DNA of 64,000 nt from Streptomyces sp. BR123 (GTDB lineage: Bacteria; Actinomycetota; Actinomycetes; Streptomycetales; Streptomycetaceae): NCBI RefSeq assembly GCF_013401435.1, contig NZ_JACBGN010000006.1, positions 1 through 64,000 of the forward strand. Reading direction: 5' to 3'. The notes below the pieces were generated by a model. It was not told where the DNA came from and made no database searches. It saw only the letters and a list, made by a program, of their open reading frames with translations. Of the stretch, positions 6,070-9,495 are shown piece after piece. Position numbers and translations under genes: made by a program. Position 1 is the first letter of the stretch, and every line of letters starts with the position of its first letter.

Positions 6070-7317
6070 CTAACCGGCCGCGGCCCGAGGTTGCGAACCG
6101 GTCTCGGGTGCCGGGCGCAGCCCCTGTCGCGCCGGCCGCCGGCCCGCGTACAACACCGCGGCGCCCGCCCCGCCCGCCAGGACCGCGCACAGCGGCCAGA
6201 GCAGCCCGGGGGCCGTCGCGTACAGGGCGCCGCCGAGCGGTGGGCCGAGGACGACGCCGCTGACGGAGACCCCTGCGTACAGGCTCTGGAACCGGCCGAT
6301 GGCGTGCTCGGGTGCCTGGTCGGCGACGTAGGCGGTGGCGGTGGTCTTGTAGAGGATCTCGCCCAGGCTCAGCAGCACGATCATCGAGGCCGCGGTGCCG
6401 ACGCCCGCTCCGGGCAGGAGTGCCGCGTAGGCGGCACCGACCAGCAGCAGCCCGGTGCCGATGACGGGGAGCGGCGGCCGGGCGCGCAGGGCGACGGCGG
6501 CAGGCAGTTCCAGCAACAGGATGACGGCGCCGTTGAGGGCGATCACGAAGCCGAAGTCCCGGGTGTCGAGGCCGTGGTCGGCGAGGAAGACGGGGAAGGT
6601 TCCGTACTGCTGGCGGTAGACGAGGTCGGTCACCAGGACCGCTCCGAGGACGACGAGTACGGCGGGCCGGGCGCGCAGCTCGGCCCACAGGCCGCGGCCG
6701 GGCGCCGCATCGGGGCAGCCGGTGGTGGGACCGGCGGCAGGGGTGCGGGCGGCGGCGCGGGCGGGGACGACCCGCGCGGTCCACAGGGCGAAGAGGAGGG
6801 TGCCGAGGCCGTCGCCGACGAAGAGCCAGTCGTACGAGAGCCGGGTCGCGATCAGCGCGCCCAGCGGCGGGCCGAGGGTGAAGCCGCCGTTGGAGACGCA
6901 GCGTACGACGGCGAAGGCCTGGCGGCGGGCGCCCTCGGGGACGGCCACCGCGACGAGTGCCGAGTTCGCGGCCCGGACCACGCCGGAGGCGTACTGGGCG
7001 AGGGGCAGGGCGGCGTACAGCCCGGCGGCGGGCAGCAGCGGGAAGGAGATGAGGGTGAGGCCGCCGAGCGTGGAGGCGGCGAGCAGGACGCGGCGGTGGC
7101 CGAAGCGGTCGCCGTACCAGCCGCCGGTGAAGTTGCCGGCGACGAGGCCGATGCCGCCGATGCCCGTGACCAGGCCCGCCTGGGCGGTGCCGAGGCCGCG
7201 GGGGCCGGTCAGGTACAGGAAGACGAAGACGAAGGTGAAGCTGACGACGGCGTTGACGAACACCCCCGCTGCCAGCAGCCACACCACTCTCGGCACGTCC
7301 CTCAGCACTTGCACCAT
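6070..7317 (-). CDS. MFS transporter, divergent from an HxlR-peroxiredoxin gene (415 aa)
   Basis: This is a major facilitator with about 12 hydrophobic segments. The loop 2-3 signature is visible (GGWYGDRFGHRRVLLAAS), and the substrate is probably exported. The start is ATG 7317, which removes a hydrophilic 25-residue extension present in the longer open frame and places the protein start at MVQVLRDVPRVVWLL. The gene is divergent from the regulator at 7410, and a 27-bp palindrome lies between them. It is therefore probably repressed by that regulator. The substrate is unknown; a drug or an oxidant/electrophile such as a quinone is plausible given the regulator type. It ends 9 nt before dapD begins on the same strand. 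Confidence 0.82.
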   Translation of the reverse strand: MVQVLRDVPRVVWLLAAGVFVNAVVSFTFVFVFLYLTGPRGLGTAQAGLVTGIGGIGLVAGNFTGGWYGDRFGHRRVLLAASTLGGLTLISFPLLPAAGLYAALPLAQYASGVVRAANSALVAVAVPEGARRQAFAVVRCVSNGGFTLGPPLGALIATRLSYDWLFVGDGLGTLLFALWTARVVPARAAARTPAAGPTTGCPDAAPGRGLWAELRARPAVLVVLGAVLVTDLVYRQQYGTFPVFLADHGLDTRDFGFVIALNGAVILLLELPAAVALRARPPLPVIGTGLLLVGAAYAALLPGAGVGTAASMIVLLSLGEILYKTTATAYVADQAPEHAIGRFQSLYAGVSVSGVVLGPPLGGALYATAPGLLWPLCAVLAGGAGAAVLYAGRRPARQGLRPAPETGSQPRAAAG

Positions 7318-7340
7318 GCCGGACCGCTCCCCCCGCGACT

Positions 7341-7367
7341 TAGTAAGTTCCTTTTGGGAACGGACTA
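7341..7367. promoter_or_regulatory. 27-bp palindrome, probable HxlR operator
   Basis: Half-sites TAGTAAGTTCC (7341-7351) and GGAACGGACTA (7357-7367) are inverted around a 5-nt centre and match at 9 of 11 positions. It lies between the divergent MFS and HxlR-peroxiredoxin genes, where both promoters should be. HxlR-type repressors bind such long palindromes as dimers. The assignment of the binding protein is inference. Confidence 0.7.
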
Positions 7368-7409
7368 TGTCAGCATGACAGCCTTGGGTCAACGGACGAA
7401 GGAGTGCCC

Positions 7410-8288
7410 ATGGCCCAGCGCACGCACCTCGGCGACGCGGACTGTTCGATTGCCCAGGCCCTCGACGTCGTGGGCGACTGGTGGACGCTGCTGATCGTGC
7501 GCGACGCCGCGCGCGGGCTGCACCGCTTCGAGGAGTTCCAGCGCGAGCTGGGGGTTTCCCGGAAGGTGCTGGCCGAGCGGCTGAAGCTGCTGGTCGAGGC
7601 CGGGGTGCTGACGCGCGAGCCGTACCGGGAGCGCCCGGTGCGGCACGAGTACCGGCTGACCCCGCGCGGGCGGGGGCTGCTACCGGTCCTGGTGGCCCTC
7701 CAGGACTGGGGTGACACCTGGGTCCTGGGAGAGGGAGAGATGACGGCGACGACGCAGGAGGCCTCGCGGGAGGCGGAGCGGGTGCACGGGCTGCGCGGCC
7801 GGCGCGTACCGGAGCTGCTGCTGCCGGACCGGTTCGGTGAACTCCGCGACCCGGTCGCGGCCGACACCCCGTTCACCGTCCTGTACTGCTTCCCCGGCGC
7901 GTACGCCCGGGCCGATTCCTACCCGCCCGGCTGGGCCGGCATTCCGGGTGCGAAGGGCTGCACGCTGGAGTCGTGCACCTACCGCGACCAACTCGCGGAG
8001 TTCACGGCGGCGGGGGCGACCGTCCACGGGGTCTCGACCCAGCGGCCCGATGAGCAGCGCGCCTTCGCGGAGGCCGAGCGGCTGCGCTTCCCGCTCCTCT
8101 CGGACGCGGACCTGGGCCTGACGGCCGCCCTGCGGCTGCCGACGTTCCGCGCGGCGGGAGTGAGCCGGATCAGGCGGCTGACCCTCGTGCTGGACCGGGA
8201 CCGGACGGTGCGCGAGGTGATCTACCCGATCACGGACATCGAGGCGAGCGTCACCGCGGCCCTCGCCGCGGTCCGCGCCGCCGCCTGA
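7410..8288 (+). CDS. HxlR-type repressor fused to a PrxQ/BCP-type peroxiredoxin (292 aa)
   Basis: Residues 1-105 form an HxlR winged-helix DNA-binding domain (DVVGDWWTLLIVRD; recognition helix near VSRKVLAERLKLLVEAG). Its N-terminal Cys12 is the position used for redox or electrophile sensing in HxlR regulators. A linker of about 30 residues follows. Residues about 135-292 form a thioredoxin-fold peroxiredoxin: LYCFPG, then GCTLESCTYRD with Cys184 and Cys189 separated by four residues. That is the spacing of peroxidatic and resolving cysteines in PrxQ/BCP enzymes. The ATG at 7410 is chosen because GAAGGAG ends 5 nt upstream. It is divergent from an MFS gene with a palindrome between. The fusion suggests a regulator that reduces, or is switched by, peroxides through its own catalytic domain. 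Confidence 0.85.
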   Translation: MAQRTHLGDADCSIAQALDVVGDWWTLLIVRDAARGLHRFEEFQRELGVSRKVLAERLKLLVEAGVLTREPYRERPVRHEYRLTPRGRGLLPVLVALQDWGDTWVLGEGEMTATTQEASREAERVHGLRGRRVPELLLPDRFGELRDPVAADTPFTVLYCFPGAYARADSYPPGWAGIPGAKGCTLESCTYRDQLAEFTAAGATVHGVSTQRPDEQRAFAEAERLRFPLLSDADLGLTAALRLPTFRAAGVSRIRRLTLVLDRDRTVREVIYPITDIEASVTAALAAVRAAA

Positions 8289-8321
8289 CGACACCGGGAG
8301 GCAGGCCTCCGGCGCGGAGCC

Positions 8322-8447
8322 GGGCGGATCAGGGACCCCTTCAGGCCTCCCGGCGCAGGGCCCGGGCGGATCAGGGACCCCTTCAGGCCTCCCGGCGCAG
8401 GGCGCGGGCGAATCGGGGACCCCTTCAGGCCTCCCGGCGCGGGGCCG
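8322..8447. repeat. Three tandem copies of a 42-bp repeat covering the TetR gene end
   Basis: Copies are 8322-8363, 8364-8405 and 8406-8447. The first two differ at one base; the third differs at a few. Each copy includes the segment that encodes the last residues and stop of the TetR gene (RREA, stop at 8425). Because 42 is a multiple of three, all copies keep that stop in the same frame. This looks like duplication of the gene's 3' end. A partial diverged copy is seen just upstream at 8296-8321. Confidence 0.9.
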
Positions 8448-8997
8448 GTGCGTGCAGGACCCGGCTCAGGATCTCGCGGGCGTGGCCCTCGTCGTACGGC
8501 GTGTCCGTCAGCAGCACCTGGAGGCTGATCCCGTCCATCACCGCCACCAGTGCCCGCGCGGTCACCGGGTCGGTCCGCTCAGCCAGGGCCGCGGCCACCG
8601 ACCCGCACCACTGCGCGGCCACCGGCCGCAGCGCGGGGCGGCGCAGCGCCGCGAGGTAGAGGTCGTACTCCAGTTCCGCCCGCGTCCGGTCCGCCCCGAG
8701 GAAATCTCCCAGCAGCGCGGCCAGCGCCCCGGCGAGGTCCGCCTCCGGGTCCGCCAGGGCGGGAGAGGCGGCGACGGTCTCGGCGAAGCCCTCGTTGGCC
8801 TGCCGCAGCGCGGCGACCAGCAGGTCGTCAAGGGTCCTGAAGTGGTACGTGGTCGAGCCCAGCGGTACGTCCGCCTCCGCGGCCACCGTGCGGTGGGTCA
8901 GCCCGGCGATGCCCTTGGCGCCGGCCACGCGGATCGCCGCGTCGATGATCCGCTGCCGCCGCTCGGGGTCGTGGCGGCGGACTCCGGAGGAGCCCAT
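8425..8997 (-). CDS. TetR-family transcriptional regulator (190 aa)
   Basis: The N-terminal helix-turn-helix is clear: RRQRIIDAAIRVAGAKGIAG then LTHRTVAAEADVPLGSTTYH and FRTLDDLLVAALRQA (residues about 10-60). The C-terminal ligand-binding domain is helical. Its ATG overlaps the stop of the SMR transporter gene (ATGA), so the two are translationally coupled. It is the obvious candidate repressor of that transporter operon. The 3' end of the gene lies inside a 42-bp tandem repeat. Confidence 0.88.
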   Translation of the reverse strand: MGSSGVRRHDPERRQRIIDAAIRVAGAKGIAGLTHRTVAAEADVPLGSTTYHFRTLDDLLVAALRQANEGFAETVAASPALADPEADLAGALAALLGDFLGADRTRAELEYDLYLAALRRPALRPVAAQWCGSVAAALAERTDPVTARALVAVMDGISLQVLLTDTPYDEGHAREILSRVLHAPAPRREA

Positions 8998-9317
8998 CAG
9001 TGCGCCCCGCTCAGGTTGACGAGGACCACCCCGGCGATGATCAGCGCGATGCCGGCGAGCTTCGCGGCGGTCGCGGCCTCGCCCAGGAACGCCATGCCGA
9101 TGGCGGCGATGGCGGCGGTGCCGACTCCGGCCCATATGGCGTAGGCCGTGCCCACCGACATCGACTTCAGGGTCTGGGCGAGCAGCGTGAAGGCGACCAG
9201 GTACCCGACCACGGTGCCCACCGAGGGCCACAGCTTCGTGAACCCGTCGCTGAACTTCATGGCGGTGGTCCCGGCGACCTCGGCCGCGATGGCGGCGGCA
9301 AGCAGTACGTAGGGCAT
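8997..9317 (-). CDS. Small multidrug resistance (SMR) transporter (106 aa)
   Basis: This is a four-helix SMR/DMT protein of typical length. The conserved membrane Glu is in AAEVAGTTAMKFSDGFTKLW (Glu13), with the usual Trp downstream. WAGVGTAAIAAIGMAFLGE marks helix 3. It exports cationic drugs or related compounds by proton antiport as a dimer. The ATG at 9317 gives the standard SMR N-terminus; a longer frame exists but adds non-family residues. It is the first gene of a two-gene operon with the TetR regulator. Confidence 0.88.
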   Translation of the reverse strand: MPYVLLAAAIAAEVAGTTAMKFSDGFTKLWPSVGTVVGYLVAFTLLAQTLKSMSVGTAYAIWAGVGTAAIAAIGMAFLGEAATAAKLAGIALIIAGVVLVNLSGAH

Positions 9318-9495
9318 GCGCACGACAATACGCACCGTTGTGGACGGCCGTACACACACGCGGGAGGAGCAAGGGTCGGGACTGCGGGCCGACCGGATCG
9401 AGGCAAGCGGGCCGCCGCCCACCTCGTCCGGCTGGACTGGACCCGTGCCGGTGGCGCTTGACGGCTTCGACGCCACGGCCACCCACGAACGGGCG

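Follow-up and report, generated by a model that had tools for sequence, protein, structure and literature searches.

A 64,000-nucleotide stretch of the genome of Streptomyces sp. BR123 (contig NZ_JACBGN010000006.1, positions 1 to 64,000; called the window below) carries a gene at 7410..8288 (+) in which an HxlR-type DNA-binding domain and a peroxiredoxin (Prx) module are joined in one protein. We propose, with confidence evenly balanced between yes and no, that this fusion is an autoregulated one-component redox repressor, whose Prx module senses the signal that leads to derepression. The fusion probably converts oxidation directly into gene expression, and it apparently controls one neighbouring gene, often one for a drug exporter.

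Architecture of the HxlR-Prx fusion

The fusion gene is a single open frame with an ATG at 7410 and a stop at 8288, and it encodes 292 amino acids (aa). A sequence-only reading of the window had claimed a 292-aa fusion of HxlR and Prx in the span 7317-8288. The fusion proved to be real, in one frame and with both domains matched in Pfam; the span includes it, but the gene starts at 7410, and 7317 is the start codon of the divergent gene, which encodes a major facilitator superfamily (MFS) transporter. The HxlR winged-helix domain (residues 20-105, 7467..7724, +) matched Pfam PF01638 with an E value of 4.9e-25, and the score of 87.6 bits against a cut-off of 20.8 places it among the HxlR/DUF24 winged-helix proteins. 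The Prx module (residues about 125-292, 7782..8285, +) was matched by AhpC-TSA PF00578 at residues 182-269 (E 9.2e-14), and its AhpC-TSA/Redoxin fold was recognised by Pfam and Foldseek alike.

An AlphaFold2 model built from 47 sequences of one clade had a mean predicted local distance difference test score (pLDDT) of 81 and a predicted template modelling (TM) score of 0.79, with residues 1-20 and 179-182 below a pLDDT of 50. When this model was compared by Foldseek, the top structure was BcpB of Mycobacterium tuberculosis (5epf, target TM 0.84), and the next ones were mostly PrxQ/BCP structures. The NCBIfam equivalogs for PrxQ/BCP stayed below their cut-offs for the fusion (39.9 versus 140 bits and 37.7 versus 260 bits). 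Furthermore, Pro162 and Cys184 are spaced by 21 residues in the fusion, whereas about six residues lie between that Pro and the peroxidatic Cys in PrxQ.

Cysteines are found in the window protein at 12, 160, 184 and 189 only. Cys12 (codon 7443..7445, +) is the N-terminal HxlR cysteine, Cys184 (7959..7961, +) stands at the peroxidatic position and Cys189 (7974..7976, +) at the resolving position, exactly as the sequence-only reading had it with Cys12 and Cys184-X4-Cys189.

Distribution and selection

The fusion is a conserved kind of protein in Streptomyces and is rarer in other Actinomycetes. Full-length fusions were present in 58 of 199 Streptomyces genomes (59 loci, L009-L067), a count that had been proposed as a check together with the typing of neighbours, which was done at 183 loci. 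The closest relatives of the window fusion in this genus sample had 88-92% identity. At E <= 1e-60, matches were found in 107 of the 297 genomes of the family sample, the rows of G681, G682, G761 and G777 being partial or split. The class sample gave 21 of 394 genomes at E <= 1e-55, 15 of them in Streptomyces and 6 outside the family; the exceptions here were G682 (Streptomyces), which is without the HxlR part, and G927 (outside the family), which is partial. An even phylum sample matched in 14 of 396 genomes at 1e-40, with a full fusion in only 3, all Streptomyces. The named genomes contained at least 80 loci, and among the matches listed 79 were from Streptomyces and one from an 'Actinobacteria bacterium'. 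Moreover, 5 of 20 matching plasmid records, four from Streptomyces and one from Nonomuraea, covered 80% or more of the query; two of these five had an annotated gene, called only 'winged helix-turn-helix transcriptional regulator', a name on which the present description would improve.

The counts of residues, operators and targets given below refer to 183 distinct full-length proteins, which were obtained from 198 after identical ones were dropped. The copies of the window locus (L005, L073 and L079) and 14 loci with partial matches of fewer than 220 columns were left out, and regions were taken in from some of the 107 matching family genomes. Over 11 pairs, the dN/dS ratio ranged from 0.03 to 0.22 in the HxlR half and from 0.07 to 0.43 in the Prx half; judged by these values, the fusion is conserved under purifying selection. 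An artefact or pseudogene is ruled out by the relatives, the kept residues, the dN/dS values and the intact frame. A broken fusion confined to this strain, which would have spoken against the sequence-only reading, is clearly not what was found, since the frame holds no stop or frameshift and many genomes carry the fusion.

Single members of the family deviate in length or composition. The L198 fusion has an additional Ala/Thr-rich insert between the HxlR and Prx parts, and L040 has a run of phenylalanine codons within the HxlR domain, which may be an error of sequencing or assembly.

A predicted operator upstream of the fusion

HxlR/DUF24 regulators have local operators, and a conserved palindromic sequence that is predicted to be such an operator is present here. 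The predicted operator, TAGTAAGTTCC-N5-GGAACGGACTA, occupies 7341..7367 between the fusion and the divergent MFS gene. A 27-bp palindrome had been claimed at this place; it is indeed there and is kept in relatives, but it is imperfect, since its arms are complementary at 9 of 11 positions as counted by eye. In the 8.16-Mb assembly the core GTNAGTTCC-N5-GGAACNNAC had one match with zero mismatches, the window operator itself, and at most two mismatches gave 8 matches at 6 places, compared with 3 for a reversed-pattern control. A widespread regulon was thus not seen in this genome, the exact operator being single.

Across the loci, the pattern GTGAGTTCC-N5-GGAACTCAC was sought within 250 bp upstream, with at most 5 of 18 mismatches allowed. 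A matching operator preceded 176 of the 183 fusions, whereas none of 181 downstream stretches of the same length had one. In a block-shuffle control the best of 20 shuffles per locus reached at most 5 mismatches in 32 of 183. Since many loci are closely related, these are not 183 independent events, and the strength of the result lies in a site that persists beside different genes. Several clades carry two operator sites.

The site seems to be tied to the HxlR domain, because it was also found near standalone HxlR relatives and was not found at the other HxlR loci of the window genome. In the former, 4 of 5 loci had an operator 15-45 bases before the matched HxlR region (mismatches: L070 5, L071 3, L167 2, L168 4), and L072, with 6, counted as without a site; in the latter, none of seven loci had an operator at 5 or fewer mismatches. 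Eight loci with the Prx part and no HxlR match were also searched; L162 had 5 mismatches, at a distant place, L208 had 2 and the other six had 6 or 7.

The divergent MFS gene (6070..7317, -) is the predicted target in the window. Its product matched MFS_1 with an E value of 3.7e-40, and its NCBIfam matches, including antiporter and efflux families, were all below the cut-offs. The predicted promoter of this gene, TTGACC-17-CATAGT (7364..7392, -), is the sole match of promoter type between the two genes, and its -10 lies partly in the right arm of the operator. When the rule was slightly loosened, 86 of 94 loci of the type named MFS_A showed a promoter of this sort overlapping the operator, and none of the downstream controls did. 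In the 14 loci that have lost the MFS gene and have dapD opposite the operator, the operator was present in 14 of 14 (at most 4 mismatches), but an overlapping promoter was present in only 3. The promoter is thus mostly gone with the MFS gene and the operator stays, which suggests that the operator serves both the divergent gene and the fusion. In the window, dapD (TIGR03535) is the next gene beyond the MFS gene on the same strand. DapD is unlikely as a target, being behind the MFS gene and facing the operator only where that gene is missing (14 of 183 loci).

Divergent genes across the family

Among the 183 loci, the divergent gene was MFS_A in 95, MFS_B (best Pfam MFS_3) in 29, an enolase gene in 19, dapD after MFS loss in 14, an ATP-binding cassette (ABC) transporter in 12 and an O-methyltransferase in 8; none was assigned in 5, and one locus met a contig end. 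These labels rest on similarity to one reference each, and Pfam was run on one reference per type, giving MFS_1, MFS_3, Enolase_N/C, ABC_tran and Methyltransf_3, as well as MOSC for a gene near some of the O-methyltransferases. The ATPase comes second among the divergent genes at the ABC loci, and the first of them looks, by eye, like an ABC-2 permease. The target types cluster on the protein tree, where 21 changes were counted and shuffling gave a mean of 65; each clade has one type of divergent neighbour.

The sequence-only reading had made the fusion a regulator of a detoxification exporter. This is supported for the clade of the window, where the predicted target is exporter-like and the operator overlaps its promoter, but not across clades, and an exporter as the general target is ruled out by the enolase and O-methyltransferase clades.

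The divergent enolase is an extra copy, as 4 of 4 searched genomes of its clade also hold another, better-scoring enolase. At L057, L059, L060, L063-L067 and their relatives, enolase diverges from the fusion beside the same operator, which is often doubled. In the window genome a second enolase (L262), similar in sequence, has no fusion or operator (at most 5 mismatches) in the flanks covered, and a comparison of cysteine content among the enolase paralogues gave no clear pattern. Two fusions of different clades, L019 and L050, occur in the same genome (G074) with similar operators and different targets, and cross-regulation is possible there. In the window itself, a 42-bp tandem repeat of 3.5 copies (8302-8446) follows shortly after the fusion gene, and adjoining genes for a TetR regulator and a small multidrug resistance (SMR) exporter lie at 8434-9320 (-).

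Kept and lost residues

Cys12 was found in 181 of the 183 proteins, the remaining two (L174 and L206) being without the N-terminus. Cys184 was likewise found in 181; the exceptions, L191 (Ala) and L224 (Gly), both belong to the enolase clade and are possibly decaying or redox-blind versions. Pro162, Glu187 and Arg256 were each kept in 183 of 183, and by analogy catalytic roles may be assigned to Pro162, Cys184 and Arg256. Cys189 was present in 119 proteins and absent in 64, with Arg in its place in 56, and it was kept in 91 of the 95 MFS_A proteins; Cys160 was present in 131. Members of the family have between two and six cysteines. In 15 of the 183 proteins only Cys12 and Cys184 are left, and 12-184 is therefore the sole possible disulfide within the chain there.

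The usual Prx motif, P-x-x-x-T/S-x-x-C, has Thr or Ser three residues before the peroxidatic Cys. At this position, residue 181, the window protein has Ala, and the family has Ala in 149 proteins, Thr in 26, Ser in 4, Gly in 2 and Val in 2. Since Ala was also found at the motif-Thr position in all eight related modules of alignment A3, of which six are standalone and two are fused to MerR, degeneration of this residue after the fusion is ruled out, and from the alignment Ala181 looks ancestral to the Prx module rather than a mark of decay. The same eight modules all keep the second Cys, and its loss in the HxlR fusions was thus probably post-fusion. A protein tree of 103 of the 183 proteins, in which MFS_A was thinned to 19 and the short rows, L191 and L224 were left out, required at least five changes in the presence of Cys189, and none of the 48 proteins on one of its two main sides (support 100) has this residue. 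The assignment of the module to the PrxQ type can accordingly be kept for the fold and for the Cys-x4-Cys of the window protein, but not for the family as a normal two-cysteine PrxQ, given the missing Cys189 and the Ala in place of the motif Thr, here, in most of the family and in all the related modules.

A second fusion of the same module

The same Prx module was found joined to a MerR-type DNA-binding domain at L068 (MerR E 2.4e-15, AhpC-TSA E 6.2e-15). When the 199 Streptomyces genomes were searched for MerR-Prx, 23 matched at 1e-30 and 20 spanned both parts. Loci of this kind are L229-L248, L267, L269 and L270, of which L270 is in a genome of another family and L248 has an altered C-terminus. 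Cys-x4-Cys was kept in 20 of 20. In 18 of 20 the gene has its own promoter, in which 20 bp separate TTGACC/G from a TA-type -10 (block shuffles 0/1000), and in 17 of 20 a 9-4-9 dyad with 7 or more pairs is centred in that promoter, a layout which we take to be that of a MerR-activated own promoter.

A module tree was made of 25 HxlR fusions, 19 of the 20 MerR fusions and 8 standalone modules. The HxlR fusions formed one clade (100/98) with L161/L162 as standalone sisters (100/99), whereas the MerR fusions (89/98) grouped with the standalone L165/L166 (86/89). Each fusion thus stands beside different standalone modules, which points to two origins of fusion. The outgroup branch is very long, and the HxlR/MerR split is independent of the root. 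Ten further module loci gave no evident third kind of DNA-binding partner. The second fusion, to MerR, fits the role of an input module. The HxlR-less L208 lies inside the HxlR clade of this tree and is a former fusion, a natural Prx-only derivative.

Proposed mechanism and rival explanations

In the mechanism that we propose, the HxlR domain would bind the operator at 7341-7367, which includes part of the predicted MFS -10 and belongs to the upstream region of the fusion itself, and transcription would be blocked. The Prx module would be the input, Cys184 reacting with peroxide or with another thiol-oxidising or electrophilic compound, and the changed state of the module would free the DNA, which would allow expression of the divergent detoxification gene as well as of the regulator. 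In the most specific version, oxidised Cys184 would pass the oxidation on to Cys12, within one chain or a dimer, in the manner of Orp1-Yap1. The Prx part may oxidise Cys12, as in this relay, reset it, the other course named in the sequence-only reading, or signal in another way. The presence of both kinds of cysteine in one chain, together with a dispensable second Prx Cys, suggests the Prx module as receiver and Cys12 or the domain interface as switch. It is possible, and we hold it tentatively, that the module is a plug-in oxidant sensor which entered at least two independent fusions (HxlR and MerR), the HxlR line having become a single-chain relay from Cys184 to Cys12. If true, this would explain why the resolving Cys was lost while Cys12 and Cys184 stayed, and why one sensor is paired with exporters, O-methyltransferase and enolase.

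Several observations weigh against the redox repressor or its relay version. All five of the near standalone HxlR sequences that were compared also have Cys12, whose invariance is therefore no evidence of a relay. Alternatively, Cys184 could be resolved by mycothiol. The standalone-type module L274 is also without the second Cys, a loss which is thus not peculiar to the HxlR fusion, and L191 and L224 are without Cys184 yet keep the rest of the protein. The Ala in place of the T-x-x-C Thr in most proteins makes peroxidase activity uncertain, and because of the low pLDDT at residues 1-20 and 179-182 the model gives no reliable distance between Cys12 and Cys184. As for the operator, the HxlR-less L162 reached 5 mismatches, so that the score of L070, also 5, is weak when taken by itself, and L208 combines a Prx module and an operator of 2 mismatches with no HxlR part. 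Lastly, a target-strand promoter overlapping the operator was found in only 4 of 26 MFS_B loci, 1 of 11 ABC loci and none of the enolase and O-methyltransferase loci, and repression is less well supported at these target types.

It is rather unlikely that the protein is bifunctional with no relay, a case in which HxlR would sense an electrophile via Cys12, the Prx part would act as an effector by clearing peroxide or lipid hydroperoxide or by reducing Cys12 again, and the fusion would just co-express both. Sensing by an N-terminal Cys is reported for HypR, YodB and CatR in the available part of PMC6943732. The retention of Cys189 in nearly all MFS_A proteins also suits an enzyme, and MerR-Prx has its own MerR-type promoter, as a self-controlled enzyme would. 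However, 64 of 183 proteins have lost the resolving Cys and the residue at C-3 is Ala, features that do not fit a turnover enzyme well (1-Cys Prx do exist), and a repressed regulator gene would be expected to yield little enzyme. The missing T-x-x-C Thr could also mean that the Prx part is a non-catalytic domain for ligand binding or dimerisation, in which Cys184 would serve to capture a small molecule covalently, such as a natural product that the target gene deals with; this we consider improbable. The 21 residues from Pro162 to Cys184 and the two proteins without Cys184 would agree with such a domain, the varied targets (exporters, O-methyltransferase) could serve antibiotic handling, and enzyme-like sensory domains are known on regulators such as MocR (PMC5320631, available part). 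Nevertheless, Pro162, Cys184, Glu187 and Arg256 are kept in 181-183 of 183 proteins, which would be needless for a pure scaffold. A reversed direction, which overlaps the other readings, seems very unlikely to us: the fusion would activate the divergent gene, like HxlR of Bacillus subtilis and oxidised HypR. The available part of PMC6943732 describes HxlR as a positive regulator and HypR as activated by thiol modification, but the operator overlaps the predicted MFS -10 in the window and the predicted promoter in 86 of 94 loci, which is the position of a repressor.

For the redox repressor and its relay version, both parts lie in one chain and the natural versions have six to two cysteines, which makes a ready-made test of the relay idea. 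The fusion would provide a compact switch that responds to oxidants and has a short operator, and it would give a lead to what the exporters, O-methyltransferases and second enolase of Streptomyces defend against.

Comparison with known systems

In the open-licence literature covered, on HxlR-Prx, MerR-Prx and relay fusions, Streptomyces HxlR repressors and a second enolase, the fusion was described in none of the titles and abstracts. A paper on a Streptomyces HxlR protein of 128 aa does not mention peroxiredoxin in its available part (PMC4763440).

The fusion resembles the HxlR/DUF24 regulators YodB, CatR, HypR and QsrR in its HxlR fold, its conserved N-terminal Cys and its detoxification targets; HypR, YodB and CatR sense hypochlorous acid, quinones and diamide via that Cys (PMC6943732, available part). 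Its sequence matches to this group in the PDB were YybR/HypR (2.6e-11), YodB (3.1e-9) and QsrR (only 0.038), which have 107-168 aa and no Prx part, whereas the window fusion carries the Prx module. With PrxQ/BCP proteins, such as BcpB 5epf and the PrxQ of Xanthomonas campestris, the fusions share the fold, sequence similarity and, in 119 of 183, Cys-x4-Cys. They differ in having mostly Ala for the motif Thr, a long loop before Cys184, often no resolving Cys, which in PrxQ/BCP is typical at +5 and not universal, and DNA-binding domains joined to them.

The peroxide-responsive regulators OhrR, PerR and OxyR are known to sense with their own Cys or metal and are not known to carry a Prx domain, and peroxidase-assisted sensing is best known from eukaryotes, as an affair of two proteins. 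MocR, in which a GntR DNA-binding domain is joined to an aminotransferase-like domain, is similarly a one-component regulator with an enzyme-like sensory part, but it depends on pyridoxal 5'-phosphate, has other domains and is described with no redox thiol in the available part of PMC5320631. In yeast, Cys36 of Orp1 is oxidised first and the oxidation is then passed to Yap1 (PMC6545440, available part). The fusion is like this Orp1/Gpx3-Yap1 system in that a thiol peroxidase may sense and hand oxidation on to a regulator, but the yeast system consists of two eukaryotic proteins of other families, whereas here both parts lie in one chain and the relay is putative.

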